Shown: in pieces, positions 16,123 through 39,045 of the stretch
Numbering within the stretch: the stretch's first letter is position 1
How the letters are laid out: each line of letters begins with the position of its first letter
From: Eubacteriaceae bacterium
GTDB lineage: Bacteria > Bacillota > Clostridia > Eubacteriales > Anaerofustaceae
Assembly (NCBI GenBank): GCA_012727485.1
Contig: JAAYHF010000076.1
Location: forward strand, 1 to 45,709
Reading direction: 5' to 3'
Length of the DNA stretch: 45,709 nucleotides
Made by a program: the position numbers and the translations under genes
The notes under the pieces: generated by a model
Told to the model about the DNA's origin: nothing
The model's database searches: none
Seen by the model: only the letters and a program-made list of their open reading frames with translations

Positions 16123-16485
16123 TTAATACTTCGTCTTGGCTCTGCCTATGAGGGAGAATATATAGCCGAAAACCACCGCAGAACCTATTCCCCCCGCCGC
16201 GGCGGTCAATCCTCCGGTGAATACACCGATCAGCCCCCTCTCGTCAACGGCGGTCATGGTGCCTTTCACCAAGGTGTAGCCGAAGCCTGTCAGAGGCACC
16301 GTGGCGCCGCAACCGCCCAAATCCACCAGATATTCATAAATGCCCAAGGCGGAAAGCACCACCCCCGCCACAACATATATCACGAGGATTTCCCCCGAGA
16401 CGAGCTTTGTCAAATCCATGATAATCTGGGCGATGAGGCACAGCGCTCCCCCTATGACAAAGGCCCATAAATATTCTTCAAACAT
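16123..16485 (-). CDS. spoVAE: Stage V sporulation protein AE (SpoVAE)
   Basis: MFEEYLWAFVIGGALCLIAQIIMDLTKLVSGEILVIYVVAGVVLSALGIYEYLVDLGGCGATVPLTGFG; start taken at 16485, with GGAGG upstream. Confidence 0.93.
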   Translation of the reverse strand: MFEEYLWAFVIGGALCLIAQIIMDLTKLVSGEILVIYVVAGVVLSALGIYEYLVDLGGCGATVPLTGFGYTLVKGTMTAVDERGLIGVFTGGLTAAAGGIGSAVVFGYIFSLIGRAKTKY

Positions 16486-17503
16486 TGTATTTCCTCCGTT
16501 CATTGGTTATGGTGACGGCATGGGCTATGCAGGGTATGCTGTTGGACTGCTGGCTTGAAGTGGTGGACAAAAGCGCCCCCGTGGCGACAAAAAGCAGGGT
16601 ATTTATCCTCTTTTCCTTCATCAGTTTATAAATAAAGCCGTTGAATACATTCGCACAGCAACCCGCTCCGCTGCCGCCGTTGTTCACATACTGCACGCTG
16701 TCGTCGTAAATGAGCTTTCCGCAGTCGGTGATGTTTTCCCCGGGGTAGCCGTATTCCTCTAAAAGTTCCTTCGCAATGTTAAGCCCTTCGTTGGCGAGAT
16801 CCCCCGTTAAGACCAGATCGTAATCCTTTAAATCGGTTTTTGTATTGGCAAAATGCTCGATTAAGGTCTTTACCGCCGCGGGAGCCATGGCACTGCCCAT
16901 GTTATAGGGGTCGCACTGCCCCAGATCCGTCACCGAGCCGATGGTAAAGTCATTGATATAAGGCCCACCCCCGCCCGATGCCACCAAACAGCTTCCCGCC
17001 CCCGTGACCGTGCGCTGACTGGTGGCGGGGTTTTGAGTACCCAGCTCCAGCGGCGAACGATACTGCCTTTCGGAAGTGGAAAAATGGCTGGAAGCGGTCA
17101 CTATCGCCTTTTTAAAGGCGCCAGAATCAATACCCAGACTCGCTATTTGAAGTCCCAAGGTATATGTGGCGCAGGCGTTGTATATGCCCCAATAGGGTAT
17201 TGCGAAGTCCCTGACGGCAAAGGTGGTGGCGGTGATTTGATTGAGCAGATCCCCGCCTATGATAACATCGGTTTCTTCTTCGTTTACAGAAGCTTTTTTC
17301 ATCAAAAGTTCGATGGAATTTTTCAGCATACCGCTTTCGGCGCTTTCGTAGCTCTTTTCGTCCATCAAATCGTCCTCATTTACCACATCGAAATATTTAC
17401 CCAAGGGCCCTTCGCCCTCGAAGGGGCCGACCACGGAGGCGGTTTGCTCGATGGAAACATCACCCTCCAAAATATAAGTTCTTCCCTTTAATCTTTTCGC
17501 CAT
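16478..17503 (-). CDS. spoVAD: Stage V sporulation protein AD (SpoVAD)
   Basis: 341 aa thiolase-like; VVGPFEGEGPLGKYFD, PYWGIYNACATYTLGL, NNGGSGAGCCANVFNG. Confidence 0.95.
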   Translation of the reverse strand: MAKRLKGRTYILEGDVSIEQTASVVGPFEGEGPLGKYFDVVNEDDLMDEKSYESAESGMLKNSIELLMKKASVNEEETDVIIGGDLLNQITATTFAVRDFAIPYWGIYNACATYTLGLQIASLGIDSGAFKKAIVTASSHFSTSERQYRSPLELGTQNPATSQRTVTGAGSCLVASGGGGPYINDFTIGSVTDLGQCDPYNMGSAMAPAAVKTLIEHFANTKTDLKDYDLVLTGDLANEGLNIAKELLEEYGYPGENITDCGKLIYDDSVQYVNNGGSGAGCCANVFNGFIYKLMKEKRINTLLFVATGALLSTTSSQQSNSIPCIAHAVTITNERRKYNV

Positions 17504-17977
17504 CTAGAAAATCACCCCCCATAGATAATATATCAATCCGAATATCCAGGAGCTTACCGTCGCATAGACAATGACGGGCCCTGCTATGGTGAACATTTTC
17601 GCCCCAAGGCCGAACACCGGGCCTTCTGTTTTAAAATCCACCGCGCAGGAAACAATGGAATTCGCAAAACCGGTGATGGGAACAATGGAGCCGGCCCCCG
17701 CATGGCGGCCTATCATATCGTATATACCGAATGCGGTCAGCGACGAACCCAAAAAGACCAACACGATGGTGGTGATGAGGGCCGCATCCTGTTCGGGAGT
17801 TCCCCAACCGATGATGATGTTCTTTATGAGCTGACCGAGGGTGCATATCGTCCCGCCCACAAGAAAAGCCATAACCGCATTCTTGAAATACTCCGGCTTG
17901 GCCTTGTTTTTCTTGCTTATTCTTTCGTAATCCTCGCGAAAAACTTCTTCGCTTTTAATTCTTTCGTTTTTAGCCAA
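17504..17977 (-). CDS. spoVAC: Stage V sporulation protein AC (SpoVAC)
   Basis: 157 aa; FLVGGTICTLGQLIKN, GHR-like AGAGSIVPITGFANSIVSCAVDFKTEGPVFGLGAKMFTIAGPVIVYA. Confidence 0.95.
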   Translation of the reverse strand: MAKNERIKSEEVFREDYERISKKNKAKPEYFKNAVMAFLVGGTICTLGQLIKNIIIGWGTPEQDAALITTIVLVFLGSSLTAFGIYDMIGRHAGAGSIVPITGFANSIVSCAVDFKTEGPVFGLGAKMFTIAGPVIVYATVSSWIFGLIYYLWGVIF

Positions 17978-18052: not shown

Positions 18053-18790
18053 TTATACCGCATAATACTCGCTTTTGAGCTTTTCGATTATCCTTTTTTC
18101 CTTTCTTGAAACCTGCACCTGGGATATTCCCAAAATTTTAGCCGTTTTGCTCTGGGTCAGTCCGTTTATATAGCGCAGAACTATTATGCGCCGGGATAGC
18201 ATATCCATTTTATCCAAAGAGGCTTTTATCGCTATCTTATCCAAGGCATAGCCTATCTCGTCCGAGGTGTCGGCTATAATGTCCGCATTCGTGCGGGAAT
18301 CCTCATCACCCCCGGGACTGTCCTCGAAATGGTCGGGATTGCGGCAGGCTTCCATGGCGGAGATTATGTCGTCCTCGCCTATGCCGAGGTTTTTGGATAT
18401 TTCCGCCACCCCCGGTTCGTAGCCCTTTGTCTTGATGCAATATTCTATATTCGCCCTGACCTTCAGATAAACCGTTTTCAGGCTTCGGCTCACCTTCACA
18501 GCCCCCTCGTCCCTCAAATGCCTTTTAAGCTCTCCGTTTATCACATGAACGGCATAGGTGGAAAATTGGGTGTTGTAATCGGGATCGTATCTGCGAGCCG
18601 CCTTTATCAGCCCTATTGCCCCTATCTGAAAAAGGTCGTCATATTCCTCCGAATACTGCAAAAAACGCTTAAGAAGGCTGTTTATCAAGGGCTTATTGCG
18701 CCTTATAAGCTCCTCGGTGGCCTGTTTATCCCCCCCCTTTGCTCTGGAAAGCAACTCCGGAGTGTAATATTTTTCGTTATTGACAGGCAC
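18053..18790 (-). CDS. sigF: RNA polymerase sporulation sigma factor SigF
   Basis: 245 aa sigma-70; DDLFQIGAIGLIKAARRYDPDYNTQFSTYAVHVINGELKRHLRD, ILGISQVQVSRKEKRI; downstream of spoIIAA-AB. Confidence 0.95.
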   Translation of the reverse strand: MPVNNEKYYTPELLSRAKGGDKQATEELIRRNKPLINSLLKRFLQYSEEYDDLFQIGAIGLIKAARRYDPDYNTQFSTYAVHVINGELKRHLRDEGAVKVSRSLKTVYLKVRANIEYCIKTKGYEPGVAEISKNLGIGEDDIISAMEACRNPDHFEDSPGGDEDSRTNADIIADTSDEIGYALDKIAIKASLDKMDMLSRRIIVLRYINGLTQSKTAKILGISQVQVSRKEKRIIEKLKSEYYAV

Positions 18791-19226
18791 ATTGACTCAC
18801 CTGCGGGGCAGCAGCCATTCTCTTTGTCATTATTATGGTTGTTCCGCAGGAAGGGGAGGAAATGATGGAAATGCTGTCCATGAAGGATTCCATTATGGTA
18901 AATCCCATTCCGCTGCGCTCCAATTCCGGCTTTGATGTGTAAAGAGGTTCTTTTGCCTGTTCTATATCCGGTATGCCCTTGCCCTCATCGCTTATCTTCA
19001 ATGTCAGCATATCGTCCTCGATTATGGCAGTCAGCTCTATGGTGCCCTCCTTTCCTTCATATCCGTGGATAACGCAGTTTGTCACCGCCTCGGAAACGCT
19101 GGTTTTAACGTCCGCCAATTCGCTTAAGGTGGGGTTCATCGGCAGAATGAAGGAGGCGATGCAACTCCTTGCCAGAGTTTCGTTTTCCGGCAGACTCTTG
19201 AATCTGATTGTCATATAATTATTCAT
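18777..19226 (-). CDS. spoIIAB: Anti-sigma F factor SpoIIAB
   Basis: 149 aa; SLPENETLARSCIASFILPMNPTLSELADVKTSVSEAVTNCVIHGYEG, GMGFTIMESFMDS. Confidence 0.96.
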   Translation of the reverse strand: MNNYMTIRFKSLPENETLARSCIASFILPMNPTLSELADVKTSVSEAVTNCVIHGYEGKEGTIELTAIIEDDMLTLKISDEGKGIPDIEQAKEPLYTSKPELERSGMGFTIMESFMDSISIISSPSCGTTIIMTKRMAAAPQVSQCACQ

Positions 19227-19585
19227 ATCGTCACTTCCTTGGATTCTTTCGTCAGATAGTCATAGGCTTCCTGAAAATCGGAATAACACTTGAAAAGCTT
19301 GAATAAGCCGGACATTTTCAATATTTTTCTGACGCTGTCGTTTTTGCAGATAATCGCAGTTTTACCCTGTCTGGGTCTTATTAACCTGTATCTGCCCATA
19401 ATCAGCCCTATGCCCGCCGAATCCATCAGCGCCAATTCCGAAAAATCGAAGATAAGGTGCTTTAATTCCTTTTTGCATAGGGCGCTGTCCGCCTTTTCTC
19501 TCACAGCCTTTGCCGCATGGTCGTCCAATTCCCCCTTAACACTAATCAAAAGAATGTTCTCCATGGATTGAATTTTATAGTCCAT
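19223..19585 (-). CDS. spoIIAA: Anti-anti-sigma factor SpoIIAA
   Basis: 120 aa STAS domain; LIFDFSELALMDSAGIGLIMGRYR. Confidence 0.95.
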   Translation of the reverse strand: MDYKIQSMENILLISVKGELDDHAAKAVREKADSALCKKELKHLIFDFSELALMDSAGIGLIMGRYRLIRPRQGKTAIICKNDSVRKILKMSGLFKLFKCYSDFQEAYDYLTKESKEVTI

Positions 19586-19593
19586 TTGCTCTC

Positions 19594-20091
19594 CTAAATC
19601 TTAAAAAGCTTTTTCGAACCCGCTTTTTTTATGTTGTTAAGCTTCTCCCGGGTTTCCACAAGTTCATAGGTTTTTTCCTTGAGCTTGCTTTTCAGCTCGT
19701 CGTTCTCCTTTTGAAGATCCGAGGTGTTTTTATATCGGCTCACCTTCCGCAGTTCCCCTATTTCCCTCAAAAGTTCCGAAATAAGCTCCTTTAAGCCTGT
19801 GGGATCGGCCTGTTCTTCGTCAACTTCCTCCGGCTTGAAAATCTTATCCTCAAAGGAGCGCTCATTGATTCTTTCGGAATTCAAGACCGCCTTTATCTGG
19901 GCATTTTTCATTCCATCGGCTTTAAGCTTATAGATATAACGGAACATTTCCAGCTCCCTGGGGGTGTAAAACCTTCTGTTGGCTTCCCCCCGGGGTATGG
20001 TCAGATTAAATTCGCTTTCGTAATACCTAAGGCAGGATTTGGAGCATCCCAGCATCGAAGCGGCTTGTCCTATCAAATATTTTTCTTCCAA
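19594..20091 (-). CDS. MerR-type HTH protein with C-terminal coiled coil
   Basis: 165 aa, TTG start; YLIGQAASMLGCSKSCLRYYESEFNLTIPRGEANRRFYTPRELEMFRYIYKLK then a long charged coiled-coil-like region and basic tail. Confidence 0.88.
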   Translation of the reverse strand: MEEKYLIGQAASMLGCSKSCLRYYESEFNLTIPRGEANRRFYTPRELEMFRYIYKLKADGMKNAQIKAVLNSERINERSFEDKIFKPEEVDEEQADPTGLKELISELLREIGELRKVSRYKNTSDLQKENDELKSKLKEKTYELVETREKLNNIKKAGSKKLFKI

Positions 20092-20096
20092 AATAA

Positions 20097-20124
20097 TAAC
20101 CCCTGAACTCGTTGTCAGGGGTTA
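20097..20124 (-). promoter_or_regulatory. Perfect hairpin covering the Shine-Dalgarno of the merR-like gene (or thiI terminator)
   Basis: Minus strand TAACCCCTGA-CAACGAGT-TCAGGGGTTA; AGGGG lies in the 3' arm, 8 nt before the TTG start. Confidence 0.6.
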
Positions 20125-20170
20125 TATTACCAAAGCAAAATTGCTGAAAGCGTTCTGTTTTGTCGATGAA

Positions 20171-21325
20171 TTATAATTTTATTATCTCGATATTCTCCAT
20201 CGCCTTTGCGATGAGTTCCGGGGCTGGAAGGCGGCTTTCCTGATATAAAACCTTTTCCAATACAGGGCGGGTTTGGGGGTGCTTGGGTACAAAGACGGTA
20301 CAGCAATCCTCAAAGGGTTTTATGGAAATCTCATAGGTGCCGATGCTTTGGGCGATTTTGATTATATCGTCCTTATCCGTGCCTATCAGGGGTCTGAAAA
20401 CGGGAATATCGGCGGCTTGGTCGGTGCAGATGATGCTTTCCATGGTTTGGGAAGCCACCTGTCCGAGGCTCTCCCCGGTTATCAATGCCCCCAAGCCGTT
20501 TTTTTCCGCATATAACCGAGCGCATTTTATCATAAAGCGGCGAAGTATCACAGTCAGATAGGATTCATCGCAGTTTTTGATTATCTCCTGCTGTATTTCC
20601 GTCAGGGAGATCATGGCGATTTCGAAACCGTTGTTATATAAGGAGAGGATCTTGCCGATATCCTCCACCTTCCTTTGGGCGTCCAGACTTGTGAAGGGAT
20701 AGGAATGGAAATGAATGCCCGTCACCTTCATTCCCCTTCGGGCCATCATATAGGCGGCAACGGGGCTGTCTATCCCGCCGGAAAGCAACACCCCTCCCCT
20801 GCCCGCCGTACCCATGGGCATTCCCTTCTGACCGGGAATATCTCCGTAGGTTATGTAGGTTTCCTTGCGTACCTCCACCCCGATAGTAATTTCCGGTTTA
20901 TGCACATCAACCTTAAGCGATGGGTATTTATCCAAAAGATAGGAACCCACCATGCTTGATATTTCGGGAGAAGTGAGGGGGAAACTCTTATCGCCCCTTC
21001 TGGATTCCACTTTAAAGGTATTGCCCCGAATGTCTTTCATCACCTCGCCCGCCGCCTGATAGATATGCTCCATATCCGATGCGGTTTGAACAGCCCTTGT
21101 TATCGCCACAATGCCGAATACCTTTGTGAGAGATGATATGACTTCCGATTCAATATCATCGGCAACATTGTAAACCGCCACCCTGCCCTGTATCTTTTCC
21201 ACCTTGACCTCCTCAAACATACGCAGGGCATATTTAATATTCCGAACAAGGGTATCGACGAAATAGTTTTTATTCAAGCCCTTTAGGGCTATTTCTCCGT
21301 ATCTTACCAAAAAGAGTTTCTTCAT
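20171..21325 (-). CDS. thiI: tRNA 4-thiouridine(8) synthase ThiI
   Basis: 384 aa; FLVRYGEIALKGLNKNYF, GGVLLSGGIDSPVAAYMMARRG, GESLGQVASQT. Confidence 0.96.
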   Translation of the reverse strand: MKKLFLVRYGEIALKGLNKNYFVDTLVRNIKYALRMFEEVKVEKIQGRVAVYNVADDIESEVISSLTKVFGIVAITRAVQTASDMEHIYQAAGEVMKDIRGNTFKVESRRGDKSFPLTSPEISSMVGSYLLDKYPSLKVDVHKPEITIGVEVRKETYITYGDIPGQKGMPMGTAGRGGVLLSGGIDSPVAAYMMARRGMKVTGIHFHSYPFTSLDAQRKVEDIGKILSLYNNGFEIAMISLTEIQQEIIKNCDESYLTVILRRFMIKCARLYAEKNGLGALITGESLGQVASQTMESIICTDQAADIPVFRPLIGTDKDDIIKIAQSIGTYEISIKPFEDCCTVFVPKHPQTRPVLEKVLYQESRLPAPELIAKAMENIEIIKL

Positions 21326-33667: not shown

Positions 33668-34432
33668 ATGTATAAAAAAGTAGAGATTTGCGGTATTTCC
33701 ACCGATTCTCTCCCTAAAGTCGGTCAGGCGCAAACGGAGATGATGCTCACCCGCCTGAAAAACGGAGACGAATCCATAAGGGAAGAATTCATCAGATGCA
33801 ATCTCAGGCTCGTTTTAAGCGTTATAAGGAAATTCGGCTATAGGGGCGAGAACATGGACGATATTTTCCAGATAGGTTGCATAGGGCTCATTAAGGCCAT
33901 TAACAATTTTGATTTGAAATACGATGTTAAATTTTCGACCTACGCCGTGCCGATGATAGCCGGAGAGGTCAAGCGCTATCTGCGGGACGCGGGGGCAATT
34001 CGGGTGAGCCGTTCCATAAAGGATGTGGCCTATAAGGCGATGAAGATCAAGGAGAGCAATCCCTCGGCCGCCAAGGAAAATAAAGATATAGCGCAACAGC
34101 TCGGAATATCGGTCAAAAAAGTGGACGAGGCCATGAAGGCGATATGCGAACCCGCCTCTTTGCACGAATATGTCTTCGGCAGTGATAACGACGGGCTGAC
34201 GGTGATGGATCAGCTCAAGGACGAAAAGAACATCGAGGATAACTGGGTGGACAACATCGCCTTAAAGGAGGCCGTGGCTTCCCTTGACGAAAAGGAGATG
34301 CTTATAATCAATCTGCGCTATTACAAAGGGCGCACCCAGAACGAAGTGGCCAAAAAGATAGGAATATCCCAAGCCCAGGTATCGAGGATAGAAAAAAATG
34401 CCTTAGCCGCCATAAAAAGGCAAATGACTTGA
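33668..34432 (+). CDS. sigG: RNA polymerase sporulation sigma factor SigG
   Basis: 254 aa; N-terminal KVEICGISTDSLP, DDIFQIGCIGLIKAINNFDLKYDVKFSTYAVPMIAGEVKRYLRD. Confidence 0.95.
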   Translation: MYKKVEICGISTDSLPKVGQAQTEMMLTRLKNGDESIREEFIRCNLRLVLSVIRKFGYRGENMDDIFQIGCIGLIKAINNFDLKYDVKFSTYAVPMIAGEVKRYLRDAGAIRVSRSIKDVAYKAMKIKESNPSAAKENKDIAQQLGISVKKVDEAMKAICEPASLHEYVFGSDNDGLTVMDQLKDEKNIEDNWVDNIALKEAVASLDEKEMLIINLRYYKGRTQNEVAKKIGISQAQVSRIEKNALAAIKRQMT

Positions 34433-34483
34433 AAAAAATGCGGTAATATTGATTAAAGGCAATCAGTATTATATAATCATGAT

Positions 34484-34945
34484 ATGAAATGTCCAAAATG
34501 CGGCTGTATAGAAAGCAAGGTACTGGATTCCAGACCCTTTGACGATTACAATTCCATCAGAAGAAGGCGGGAATGTACGGAATGTAAATTCCGCTTCACC
34601 ACCCATGAGAGGGCGGTTTTTGTTTCTCTGGTTGTGGTAAAAAAGGATCTGACCCGGGAGGAATACGACAGGAACAAGATAATCAAGGGAGTGATGAAAT
34701 CCTGCGAAAAGCGGCCCGTTTCCCTGGAGCAAATAGAGGAAATGGTCACCGGGATAGAAGCCGAGCTTTTTTCCACCAGCGCGGGCGAGGTGCAATCCAG
34801 CGAGATAGGCGAAGCGGTGATGGAAAAACTTAAGGATTTGGACGAAGTCGCCTATGTGAGATTCGCTTCGGTATACAGGCAATTCAAGGATATTGATACC
34901 TTCATGGACGAATTGCAGAAAATCCTCAAACACAGAGAAAATTAA
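34484..34945 (+). CDS. nrdR: Transcriptional repressor NrdR
   Basis: 153 aa; MKCPKCGCIESKVLDSRPFDDYNSIRRRRECTECKFRFTTHE, ATP-cone. Confidence 0.96.
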   Translation: MKCPKCGCIESKVLDSRPFDDYNSIRRRRECTECKFRFTTHERAVFVSLVVVKKDLTREEYDRNKIIKGVMKSCEKRPVSLEQIEEMVTGIEAELFSTSAGEVQSSEIGEAVMEKLKDLDEVAYVRFASVYRQFKDIDTFMDELQKILKHREN

Positions 34946-35014
34946 GTTTCGAATATGCGCCGAAAACCGGCGCATATTTTTCTTTTAAAGCCTGTATTAT
35001 AGCACGGGGATTAA

Positions 35015-35623
35015 TTGGCTAAGAAAATACTCTTGCACATAAGAAAGAATTTATCGGAATATCTCATGTTTACGCTGGTTTTCATCATAGGCGCAACCCT
35101 GGGAGCCGCTTGGATATACCTTATGCCCGAGGAGAAAAAGGCGCTTTTCACCTCTTATCTCCAAAAATACATATCAGCCTTCGCCAAGGGAGCAAATCCG
35201 GCCAAGGATTCCTTTAAGGCGGGGTTTATGAACCAGCTCAAGGTCAACATCACCTTTTTACTCATGGGCTTTTTTGATATGGGCATTCTATTTGCCTATT
35301 CTTTTCTTTTCATCAGGGGGGCCGCCCTGGGTTTTGCGGGGGGGTGCATCGTGGGGCTATATTCCTACAAGGGCTTTTTTTACTGCGCCTGCATCTTCTT
35401 TGCGGATTTGATTTTCATAACTCCTTCCCTGCTGTTTGCCTGCGTATGCGTGCGCTCCTTCCGTTCGAAGATCGCCGCATCGGGCGCAAAGGCTTATCAA
35501 AGCTTCACCGCCGCATACATAGTAATGCTTAGCTTCGCTTTTTTGATCAACACTTTGGGCACATTGGTGAAATCCCTCTGTGTTCCATATATACTGATGC
35601 ACTTAAACAAGGGGATTCTCTGA
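35015..35623 (+). CDS. spoIIM: Stage II sporulation protein M
   Basis: 202 aa, TTG start, multi-TM; LMFTLVFIIGATLGAAWIYLMPEEKKAL. Confidence 0.88.
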   Translation: MAKKILLHIRKNLSEYLMFTLVFIIGATLGAAWIYLMPEEKKALFTSYLQKYISAFAKGANPAKDSFKAGFMNQLKVNITFLLMGFFDMGILFAYSFLFIRGAALGFAGGCIVGLYSYKGFFYCACIFFADLIFITPSLLFACVCVRSFRSKIAASGAKAYQSFTAAYIVMLSFAFLINTLGTLVKSLCVPYILMHLNKGIL

Positions 35624-35689
35624 TAATCGTCGTTTTCGGTAATTAACGGGGCGTAAGCCAAATAAGATATATAAGCCAAGGAGGTTTTA

Positions 35690-36838
35690 ATGAAAAAGAA
35701 AATGATCCCGGCGATAATGGCAATGTTTCTTATCCTTTGCATCTTTCCCGCCCGGGTGGAAAGCGCCGAAATAGCAATAGATTGCCCCTGCGCCGTTTTA
35801 ATGGATATGAACACCAAAAGGGTGCTTTACGAAAAGGATTCCCACAAAAAACAGCCCATCGCCAGCATGACCAAGATAATGACAATGCTCATAGCGATGG
35901 AATACCTCGACGAAGGGCGCATCACCCCCGAGGAAAGCGTTATCATATCCCAAAGGGCTTCCGCCATGGGGGGGACACGGCTTTTCCTTGAGGCAAACGA
36001 AGTCAGAACCGTTGACGACCTGCTTTATGGGATAGCAATAGAAAGCGGCAACGATGCGGCTGTTGCCTTGGCGGAATTCATCGGCGGGAGTTATGAGGGT
36101 TTCATTGAATTGATGAACGAAAAGGCCCGTCAGCTCGGCATGGACGATTCCTATTTCGGCACGCCCTGCGGGCTGGAGGATAAGGACAATTATTCCTGCG
36201 CCTATGACACCGCCCTGATGTCCGCGGAATTATTGAAGCACGAGAGGATCTACAACTACATTTCCGTCTGGACGAAGGAGGTCACCGTCGGGCGCAATAA
36301 CGATGTGAAGCGGGTTCTTGCCAATACGAACAAACTGCTCACCCAAACGGACTATGTGGACGGGATAAAAACGGGCTATACATCGCAATCGGGCTACTGC
36401 CTATCCGCCACCGCCAAGAAGGGGGATATGCGGCTGATTGCCGTTGTGATGAACGCCCAAAGCTCTGCGGTAAGGTTTACGGACACCAAAACCCTGCTTA
36501 TTTACGGCATGAATTCCTTCGAGGGCAAATACATAATCAAGCCGGGCGATACAGTTTGCGCCGCCCCCATTTTAAATGCGGAAAACCCCACGAGCGAGCT
36601 TGCCGTCAGGGAAGGCGTTTATTCCCTGAGCGAGGCGGGAAAACAAAAGCAATATGAGGAAAAAACGGAAATTTTTCCTTCCTTGAGCGCTCCGATTGAC
36701 GGGAACACCCCCGTGGGAAAGCTGACGATCACATCCAATGAGGAGGTCTTTACCCTCGATCTATACCCCTCAGCCCCCATAGAAAAATGCACTTTCAGAG
36801 AATTTTTAAGGCGAATCGGGGAATACGCCCTTTATTAA
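35690..36838 (+). CDS. D-alanyl-D-alanine carboxypeptidase (DacF/PBP5-type)
   Basis: 382 aa; PIASMTKIMTMLIAMEYL (SxxK), SGNDAAVALAE (SxN), VDGIKTGYTSQSGYCL (KTG). Confidence 0.94.
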   Translation: MKKKMIPAIMAMFLILCIFPARVESAEIAIDCPCAVLMDMNTKRVLYEKDSHKKQPIASMTKIMTMLIAMEYLDEGRITPEESVIISQRASAMGGTRLFLEANEVRTVDDLLYGIAIESGNDAAVALAEFIGGSYEGFIELMNEKARQLGMDDSYFGTPCGLEDKDNYSCAYDTALMSAELLKHERIYNYISVWTKEVTVGRNNDVKRVLANTNKLLTQTDYVDGIKTGYTSQSGYCLSATAKKGDMRLIAVVMNAQSSAVRFTDTKTLLIYGMNSFEGKYIIKPGDTVCAAPILNAENPTSELAVREGVYSLSEAGKQKQYEEKTEIFPSLSAPIDGNTPVGKLTITSNEEVFTLDLYPSAPIEKCTFREFLRRIGEYALY

Positions 36839-36876
36839 AAAAAATCCGGAAGCGCTCATGATTTGCGCTTCCGGAT
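36837..36876 (-). terminator. spo0A terminator
   Basis: ATCCGGAAGCGC (36844-36855) / GCGCTTCCGGAT (36865-36876); T-run on the minus strand. Confidence 0.88.
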
Positions 36877-36904
36877 ACACAAGCCCTTTAACCCGGCTTC
36901 AGGT

Positions 36905-37690
36905 TCAGACATACTCACCAATTTGCATCCTTATCTTGTCGGCGACCATCGCAATGAATTCGCTGTTCGTCGGCTTGCCTTTGTTTTGATCGATCGTATA
37001 CCCGAATATCATATCCAAGGTTTCAACCCTGCCCCTTGACCAAGCCACCTCGATGCCGTGGCGTATGGCGCGTTCGACCCGGCTTGATGTGGTGTTGTAT
37101 TTCCTTGCTATCGCAGGGTAAAGCTCCTTGGTTATCCCTCCCAGAAGTTCCTGATTTGAGATGACCATTTTAATGGCATCTCTCATGTACATATAACCTT
37201 TGATATGTGCGGGAACTCCTATTTCGTGCAGGATATTCGTGACAAGCACATGGTTGTTGTCCTCTCCGGTTTTATTGAACATGACCTTTGTGTAAACTTC
37301 CGAAGTTCTTTCGGGGTTGTACTTCACGATCTGCTCCACTCTGGATGCAAATTCATCCAGATCAACGGGCTTGACAAAGTAATAGTCAGCCCCCAATTCA
37401 ACCGCATTTCGGGTCAGTTTGTCGTTTGCCACGACGGACATCATGATAATGACGGGGTCATAATCCTCGTCTAAATTGGAAATCGCCTTCAACACTTCGA
37501 TTCCGTCCATATAGGGCATAACGTTATCCAAAATGACCACCTGCGGCATTTTCTGCTTTATGACTTCCATAAGCTCCGTACCGCTGCAGGCAGTGCCAAC
37601 AACATTGATATCGGTGTACAGCAATAATTTCTTTTCGATGGCGGATGCAAATGTGGTATTGTCATCGGCGATCGCAACTGAATAAGACAT
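36905..37690 (-). CDS. spo0A: Sporulation response regulator Spo0A
   Basis: 261 aa; [17 protein letters not shown] receiver; [35 protein letters not shown] Spo0A_C. Confidence 0.97.
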
Positions 37691-37782
37691 AATCTCACAG
37701 TCCTTTCTACTTCCGTATGATTTTCTACCACATAATACATCGATCTATACGAAAAAATTGTCATAAAATGAATGGGGTTATA

Positions 37783-39045
37783 TTATTTCAGATTATTCAG
37801 CATCCATTCTATGAATATCGCATAACCCCTTTGGGGGTTATTAACGAGCACGTGGGTAACTGCGCCGACGATCTTGCCGTTTTGGATTATGGGACATCCA
37901 CTCATGCCCCTTACAATACCGCCGGTTTTTTCTATCAATCTTTCATCCGTCACTTCTATCAGCATACTCTTTGTGCTGATTTTGTTCTGCTTGTTTACCT
38001 TAATTATGTTTATCGCATATTCTTCCGCTTTATCGTCAAGAGTCACAATTATCCCGGCGGGCCCTTCGGTTATCTCGTTTTGCATGGCGATGGGATATAG
38101 CATATCCTCGTTTAGCTCTATTCCGCCTTTGTATTCCCCGTAGATCCCGTATTCCGTATTGGACAGCACATCTCCGCAAACTCCCTTTCGGGAGGAAAAA
38201 ACTCCCCTCAGCTCCCCCGGGGCTTTGCTTACTCCCTTGGTTATTTTCACCACATTGGCTTTAAGCAATACTCCCTTTTTCATCGGCACGGTAACATGGG
38301 TGTTCGCGTCCGTGATGGCATGGCCCAATGCGCCGAAATATTTTTTATCCTGGGTGACGAAGGTTAGGGTGCCTATGCCGGAAACATTATCCCTTACCCA
38401 TAGGCCTATCTGATAATTCCCGCTGCCGTTTATAATGGGATAAACGGTGAAGGTCATCGGTTTGCCCTCCCTGACCAAGAGAATTTGCACTTTCTGTCCG
38501 TTCACGCTGTTCAGCACCTCCCGAAATTCCGAGGCCTTGTCCACAGCAACTCCGTTAATGGCTTTGACGATATCTCCTTCCCTTATGCCCGCCCGATAAG
38601 CGGGGCTGTATTCGGTGCCGCCCGAAACACCCAAAGGTTCGAATCCCACAGCTATGACCCCGGAGGTGTCCACCTTAACTCCGATGGCATCTCCGCAGAC
38701 ATAAAGTTTTTCGTTTGAGATCACATTCACCTTCAAATGCTTAAATACGACCCTATTATATATATTTACGGTAAAATCGAAATCTCCTTCTTTTTTTGCG
38801 AAAAAATTTAAACTTTTTTTTGCGTTTACCTTGTAAGCCGTCGAAAATTCGCCATTTACCCCGATAATATCCTCTTTTTGCTTTAAATTCACATTTGTGA
38901 AGATACTTTCAATTTTGACGCTTGCCGTTTGTCCGGCGATGATGTTTATGGTTTCGTCACAGAAGCTCGGGTATATGGCAAAGGCGGCCATAACCGAAAA
39001 CAAAAGCACAATAAAAAAATACGCACAGCGGTTTTTAATCTTCAT
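37783..39045 (-). CDS. spoIVB: SpoIVB peptidase (PDZ, S55)
   Basis: 420 aa; GDAIGVKVDTSGVIAVGFE, PDZ AGIREGDIVKAINGV, GMSGCPIIQNGKIVGAVTHVLVNNPQRGYAIFIEWML. Confidence 0.95.
   Translation of the reverse strand: MKIKNRCAYFFIVLLFSVMAAFAIYPSFCDETINIIAGQTASVKIESIFTNVNLKQKEDIIGVNGEFSTAYKVNAKKSLNFFAKKEGDFDFTVNIYNRVVFKHLKVNVISNEKLYVCGDAIGVKVDTSGVIAVGFEPLGVSGGTEYSPAYRAGIREGDIVKAINGVAVDKASEFREVLNSVNGQKVQILLVREGKPMTFTVYPIINGSGNYQIGLWVRDNVSGIGTLTFVTQDKKYFGALGHAITDANTHVTVPMKKGVLLKANVVKITKGVSKAPGELRGVFSSRKGVCGDVLSNTEYGIYGEYKGGIELNEDMLYPIAMQNEITEGPAGIIVTLDDKAEEYAINIIKVNKQNKISTKSMLIEVTDERLIEKTGGIVRGMSGCPIIQNGKIVGAVTHVLVNNPQRGYAIFIEWMLNNLK

Follow-up and report, generated by a model that had tools for sequence, protein, structure and literature searches.

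A MerR-type coiled-coil protein at the head of the spoIIA operon in Anaerofustaceae as a candidate Spo0A-controlled DNA-membrane tether

The window, that is, the whole 45,709-nt stretch of DNA analyzed here (contig JAAYHF010000076.1, assembly GCA_012727485.1), comes from a Eubacteriaceae bacterium of the Anaerofustaceae. It carries a gene, designated merRcc, at the head of a series of genes lying on one strand in the order spoIIAA-spoIIAB-sigF-spoVAC-spoVAD-spoVAE. A preliminary description had placed an open reading frame at 19594–20091 without giving a strand; the gene was confirmed and assigned to the minus strand. Its TTG start was supported by homologues from several genera, which start at the same place and also with TTG. 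The gap of 8 nt to spoIIAA on the same strand (19586–19593) was likewise confirmed, and co-transcription of the two genes is likely from this arrangement. The genes considered were as follows:

20171–21325, minus: thiI, the neighbor upstream of merRcc, outside the system
19594–20091, minus: merRcc, MerR-HTH/coiled-coil/basic-tail protein of 165 aa (from the TTG at 20091 to the stop codon at 19594)
19223–19585, minus: spoIIAA, anti-sigma-F antagonist (STAS, 4.1e-21; TIGR02886, 108.7 bits, just below the cut-off of 114.75)
18777–19226, minus: spoIIAB, anti-sigma F (TIGR01925, 190.7 bits)
18053–18790, minus: sigF, sporulation sigma factor, divergent in sequence score (TIGR02885, 228 bits, below the cut-off of 321)
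17504–17977, minus: spoVAC
16478–17503, minus: spoVAD
16123–16503, minus: spoVAE (AEB-type)
36905–37690, minus: spo0A, candidate regulator of merRcc

More sporulation genes were found at 33668–39045 of the window, namely those for a sigG-like sigma factor (33668–34432), spoIIM (35015–35623), a DacF-like carboxypeptidase (35690–36838), and spoIVB (37783–39045, minus strand). A literature search on a MerR gene at spoIIA returned nothing relevant.

The merRcc protein was divided into the following parts:

19876–20079, minus: MerR winged helix-turn-helix (HTH), residues 5–72 (Pfam MerR_1, 3.2e-18; AlphaFold2 pLDDT ~90)
19804–19875, minus: acidic linker, residues 73–96, poorly conserved (charge −6; pLDDT <50 at 77–94; pairwise identity 17–20%)
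19609–19803, minus: single long helix or coiled coil, residues 97–161 (AlphaFold2 helix of 65 residues)
19642–19722, minus: coiled-coil core LxxENxxLKxKxKEKxYE, residues 124–150, the best-conserved part of merRcc, with invariant columns
19597–19629, minus: basic/aromatic tail KKAGSKKLFKI, residues 155–165, a putative membrane or DNA contact

AlphaFold2 analysis with an 18-row alignment, a structure prediction that the preliminary description had proposed, yielded a winged helix predicted with confidence, a linker disordered at residues 77–94, and one helix spanning residues 97–161. The pTM of the monomer was low (0.44), and the relative placement of these parts is therefore not fixed by the model. 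The N-terminal MerR HTH, acidic linker, and basic tail named in that description were all recovered, the last two with net charges of −6 (residues 75–100) and +5 (last 14 residues). Beyond MerR_1, no Pfam or NCBIfam family reached its cut-off on merRcc. An effector (sensor) domain, which the same description had not seen, was detected in none of the 14 orthologues (merRcc and 13 others). A metal- or drug-sensing MerR regulator was rejected on this ground, and because NCBIfam equivalog scores fell far below their cut-offs.

The heptad-like coiled coil described earlier held in part. The long predicted helix, the conserved core motif, and the residues at positions 130, 137, 144, and 151 (N, L, L, and L) fit a coiled coil, but the heptad periodicity of the single sequence was modest (best window z ~2, residues 93–120). 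The mean pairwise identity was 0.55–0.67 in the coiled-coil core versus 0.40–0.51 in the HTH (0.55 versus 0.40 within Anaerofustaceae), which is the reverse of what is expected for a plain regulator.

The positive charge of the tail is shared by the homologues examined. In all 43, some of which are near-duplicates, the last 14 residues carried a net charge of +2 to +7 together with hydrophobic or aromatic residues, as in KKRSLFSRLFGR and KSIFKKIFKRK. The tails of Anaerofustaceae merRcc proteins are short; in a single-sequence model of a Caloranaerobacter homologue, the predicted helix reached the C-terminus. The helical hydrophobic moments of the tails were no better than those of shuffled sequences. 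One end of the merRcc protein probably grips DNA, and the other end may touch the cell membrane, the latter suggestion being based on tail composition, tail conservation, and the precedent of TubY rather than on the hydrophobic moment.

Three elements were noted between thiI and the merRcc start codon:

20160–20167, minus: 0A-box-like site (plus strand TTGTCGAT, minus strand ATCGACAA), separated by 3 nt from the coordinates of thiI upstream
20124–20129, minus: −10-like TAATAT, 29 nt after CGACAAA (consensus match only)
20096–20125, minus: perfect 11-bp hairpin (z −3.3) with a likely Shine-Dalgarno sequence, AGGGG, in its 3′ arm

CGACAA is the core of the Spo0A box read on the opposite strand (TTGTCG), the box consensus being TGTCGAA. 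It was present upstream of merRcc, on the same strand, in nine of 10 family genomes and six of seven genera, the seventh genus having AGACAA; the background frequency is 0.039 per 200 nt. The site was also retained in G003, where merRcc is detached from spoIIA. In three genomes (G004, G007, and G010), it apparently lies inside the 3′ end of an upstream hydrolase gene, so that protein conservation may contribute. Exact Spo0A boxes were found upstream of distant orthologues at 10 of 45 loci, some of them near-duplicates, versus 0.9 expected. TAATAT recurred with the same spacing in four further genomes (Anaerofustis L004–L006, and L007). When spoIIE was used as a motif control, only G002 and G005 had the exact sequence TTCGACA, at 57 nt upstream, and two more of the 10 genomes had the core CGACAA; given these sparse boxes, the motif test lends support but does not decide. 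The earlier proposal of a sporulation factor gains support from the CGACAA site, and merRcc is probably under Spo0A control.

The hairpin may act as the thiI terminator, as a translation block on read-through RNA, or as both. If transcription starts just after TAATAT, it would form only on thiI read-through RNA and block translation there. Rfam analysis revealed no known RNA element in the merRcc leader. The palindrome had a single full-length match in the genome, and the idea that it represents dispersed RacA-type binding sites was rejected for this reason.

The distribution of merRcc was determined in 13 genomes of the Anaerofustaceae (GTDB terms), a family assigned via named relatives such as Anaerofustis stercorihominis. 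Within the order, orthologues stood apart, scoring at least 160 bits except for two divergent copies (G002 and G005), and other MerR proteins scored below 62 bits. The Anaerofustaceae sequences formed one supported clade (99/97) in a tree of 40 homologues. Every one of the 10 family genomes that encode spoIIAB, Spo0A, and SpoIIE carried merRcc, and none of the three lacking them did, a strict co-occurrence that supports the link to sporulation proposed from the window. Across the order (67 genomes), spoIIAB was found in 13 of 14 merRcc carriers versus 17 of 67 genomes overall, and in the class sample in 26 of 27 carriers versus 280 of 391; relatedness was not corrected for in either comparison. 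At the threshold used, merRcc was missing from most sporulators in the class sample. It was also missing from four spoIIAB-positive genomes of the order (G013, G017, G021, and G032), and it is thus not a general sporulation need.

The gene directly precedes spoIIAA in six family genomes (G000, G002, G004, G005, G007, and G010), is separated from it by one SASP-like gene in three (G008, G009, and G012; L004:2062–2238 and the L006/L007 equivalents), and is detached from spoIIA in G003. The gene-neighborhood survey suggested by the preliminary description therefore gave a divided answer: the linkage recurs across Anaerofustaceae, in nine of 10 genomes directly or across the SASP-like gene, but synteny with spoIIA is absent in other Clostridia, an outcome that the preliminary description had named as counting against its reading. 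Orthologues there were neither beside spoIIA nor in sporulation loci, and their hosts are mostly sporulators. Their neighbors, mostly recognized by eye from sequence except in the Geosporobacter record, included cmk-plsC-ispH, cheR, M42 peptidase genes, an MBL beta-CASP hydrolase gene, and miaB-mutS-mutL. These other contexts indicate that the spoIIA linkage is a derived trait of Anaerofustaceae. The MBL-merRcc pair, common to G007 and distant families, supports orthology. In Anaerofustis G003, cmk-plsC-ispH follows spoVA, which points to a local rearrangement as the probable origin of the spoIIA linkage, retained thereafter.

Several related sequences were observed during this survey. The spoIIA-linked orthologues of G002 and G005 (L013:1492–2406 and L021:1492–2097) have a diverged HTH and a longer linker, with the coiled-coil core and tail intact. 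In G208 (L139:5006–6930), the MerR HTH of this family is fused to a STAS anti-anti-sigma domain, and the fusion has lost the coiled coil. Genes for an RsbW-like HATPase and a SigB/F/G-type sigma factor come next, and cheR lies upstream. The homologue on a Geosporobacter plasmid was considered as a partition gene and rejected, its neighbors being of ordinary chromosomal type (cmk, plsC, ispH, miaB, mutSL, and hfq). Phage homologues showed little likeness beyond the HTH and belong to PHROG families of unknown function. The Anaerofustis genomes G003, G009, and G012 carry spo0A, spoIIE, and the spoIIA operon, although one Anaerofustis species has been described as non-spore-forming (PMC12029686).

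In Bacillus sporulation, RacA and DivIVA hold the chromosome at the pole. RacA is made early in sporulation under Spo0A/sigma-H, binds sites near the origin, and traps the origin in the forespore; as to its timing, merRcc offers the conserved 0A-box-like motif upstream. The RacA-like layout seen earlier in merRcc was upheld, as a MerR-like winged HTH and a coiled coil were found with no effector domain. The HTH model superposed on the RacA DNA-binding domain (5I44/5I41) with TM scores of 0.81–0.84 (on target) and 1.1–1.4 Å over ~62 residues. Other MerR-type domains superposed nearly as well, and this match therefore does not show RacA membership. NF009646 (PRK13182), which we take to be the RacA model, had no match in the genome of the window at E ≤ 1, the B. 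subtilis control being positive, and RacA chains were missing from a profile search of the PDB with the merRcc family at E ≤ 10. DivIVA (PF05103) was detected in none of the 13 Anaerofustaceae genomes, while control genomes were positive. RacA membership was rejected on these three results. The proposed clostridial RacA analogue is supported as far as layout, spoIIA linkage, and co-occurrence are concerned, but not as a member of the RacA sequence family or as a partner of DivIVA. RacA anchors through DivIVA (PMC6593407). A DivIVA-dependent anchor is unlikely in Anaerofustaceae, as DivIVA was undetected in all 13 genomes, and a RacA-like job, if present, would need another anchor, for which the tail is the obvious candidate.

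We tentatively prefer the reading that the merRcc protein is a Spo0A-controlled DNA-membrane tether linked to sporulation. Its starting points, the domains, conservation, synteny, co-occurrence, and upstream motif of merRcc, are established by sequence or computation. Beyond these, we infer control by Spo0A, oligomerization, contact with the membrane, and involvement in anchoring the chromosome or timing the septum. The protein would be a sporulation-linked member of a Clostridia-wide MerR-type family that lacks a sensor domain and ends in a short Lys/Phe tail after a highly conserved coiled coil; in Anaerofustaceae, its gene came to lead the spoIIA operon. Spo0A would probably switch it on before polar septation; the winged helices would bind chromosomal sites; the coiled coil would form a dimer or tetramer, gathering several tails; and the clustered basic-hydrophobic tails would hold the nucleoprotein complex at the membrane. 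The protein would then perform RacA's anchoring task directly and independently of DivIVA. This reading is favored by the lack of an effector domain, the positive tails of all 43 homologues, the TubY and Noc precedents, the 10/10 versus 0/3 co-occurrence, the 0A-box-like motif, the lack of DivIVA in 13 of 13 genomes, the fold match of the HTH to RacA, and a coiled-coil core better conserved than the HTH. Against it are the short tails with hydrophobic moments like those of shuffles, the position of orthologues elsewhere outside sporulation loci, the four spoIIAB-positive genomes of the order and most class sporulators without the gene, the diverged HTH in G002 and G005, and the uniqueness of the sole perfect palindrome, which leaves no dispersed binding sites found. 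The more specific proposal of a DivIVA-independent clostridial chromosome anchor for sporulation, produced alongside the sigma-F switch under Spo0A control and tethering DNA directly to the membrane by clustered Lys/Phe tails, is rather unlikely.

The main rival, possible but somewhat unlikely, is that merRcc encodes an effector-less MerR transcription regulator of early sporulation, which adjusts spoIIA or other genes, possibly its own promoter, with the tail serving only as a DNA-binding extension. HiNmlR, GlnR, and TnrA likewise have no sensor domain, and the best Foldseek E-values for the merRcc model were for HiNmlR (a MerR regulator without a sensor domain) and others, in line with the Pfam MerR_1 match. 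The perfect inverted repeat just upstream of the start could be an operator, and TubY itself also activates transcription (PMC7762940). Against this rival, conservation is higher in the coiled-coil core than in the HTH, two spoIIA-linked members have a strongly diverged HTH, and the Lys/Phe tail persists. It is distinctly unlikely that merRcc is a general Clostridia gene of unrelated or housekeeping function, brought beside spoIIA by rearrangement and carried by read-through. The strict loss of merRcc together with sporulation genes in Anaerofustaceae, the presence of spoIIAB in nearly all carriers (13/14 and 26/27), and the Spo0A-box-like site kept even where the gene is detached all argue against this, while its company elsewhere (MBL hydrolase, cheR, M42 peptidase, ispH, and miaB-mutS genes), its detachment in G003, and the SASP-like gene intervening in three genomes speak for it. 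In a third rival, the merRcc protein acts on the sigma-F partner switch itself, as an additional regulator whose coiled coil contacts SpoIIAA, SpoIIAB, or sigma F. This would agree with the position of merRcc next to spoIIAA, immediately or with one SASP-like gene in between, in nine of 10 family genomes, and with the HTH-STAS fusion beside an RsbW-like protein and a sigma factor in G208. It is nevertheless very improbable: most orthologues have no partner-switch neighbors, merRcc lies apart from spoIIA in G003, and the G208 fusion, having lost the coiled coil, does not use it.

With RacA undetected in the genome of the window and DivIVA in the 13 family genomes, merRcc is a concrete candidate for origin capture, offering a defined tail, a DNA-binding domain, and a likely regulator. 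It could be how these gut bacteria hold a chromosome in place during sporulation, and, if the DivIVA-independent anchor proves true, merRcc would correspond functionally to RacA where both RacA and DivIVA are lacking. Should anchoring prove wrong, merRcc still marks an uncharacterized family spread across Clostridia, whose loss in Anaerofustaceae goes with the loss of sporulation.

Compared with known systems, merRcc shares with RacA of Bacillus subtilis a MerR-like HTH, a C-terminal coiled coil, small size, the lack of an effector domain, and a link to sporulation, but there is no sequence-family match, and RacA needs DivIVA, which was undetected in the 13 Anaerofustaceae genomes. MerR regulators of the HiNmlR type share the winged helix and the lack of a ligand domain, but have shorter chains (126–132 residues modeled) and neither a conserved core motif nor a Lys/Phe tail like that of merRcc. 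Noc, a DNA-binding protein that uses a weak amphipathic helix to recruit DNA to the membrane (PMC4331003), sets a precedent for such a tether, but it is a ParB-type CTPase with an N-terminal helix and no homology to merRcc.

The closest known architecture is that of TubY from type III (TubRZ) plasmid and phage partition, a closer precedent than RacA. By its published layout, TubY has a MerR-like HTH, a parallel-tetramer coiled coil, and a conserved amphipathic Lys/Phe tail; this tail binds DNA and, only when oligomerized, membranes (PMC7762940). The HTH, coiled coil, and Lys/Phe tail of merRcc match this layout. Profile searches of the PDB with the merRcc family did not return TubY. merRcc differs in being linked to spoIIA, with no adjoining tubulin-family gene. 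A tubulin-family search of the 13 family genomes yielded one FtsZ each (none found in the incomplete G008) plus, in G005, an FtsZ-like protein of 308 aa whose GTPase motif appears degenerate (L180:2233–3159). A TubZ/TubR partition system was rejected, as these were the only such genes and no tubZ-type gene lies near merRcc. Chromosomal TubY has been reported in some Clostridia (PMC7762940), and the DivIVA-independent anchor, if true, would link plasmid tethers of the TubY type with sporulation.
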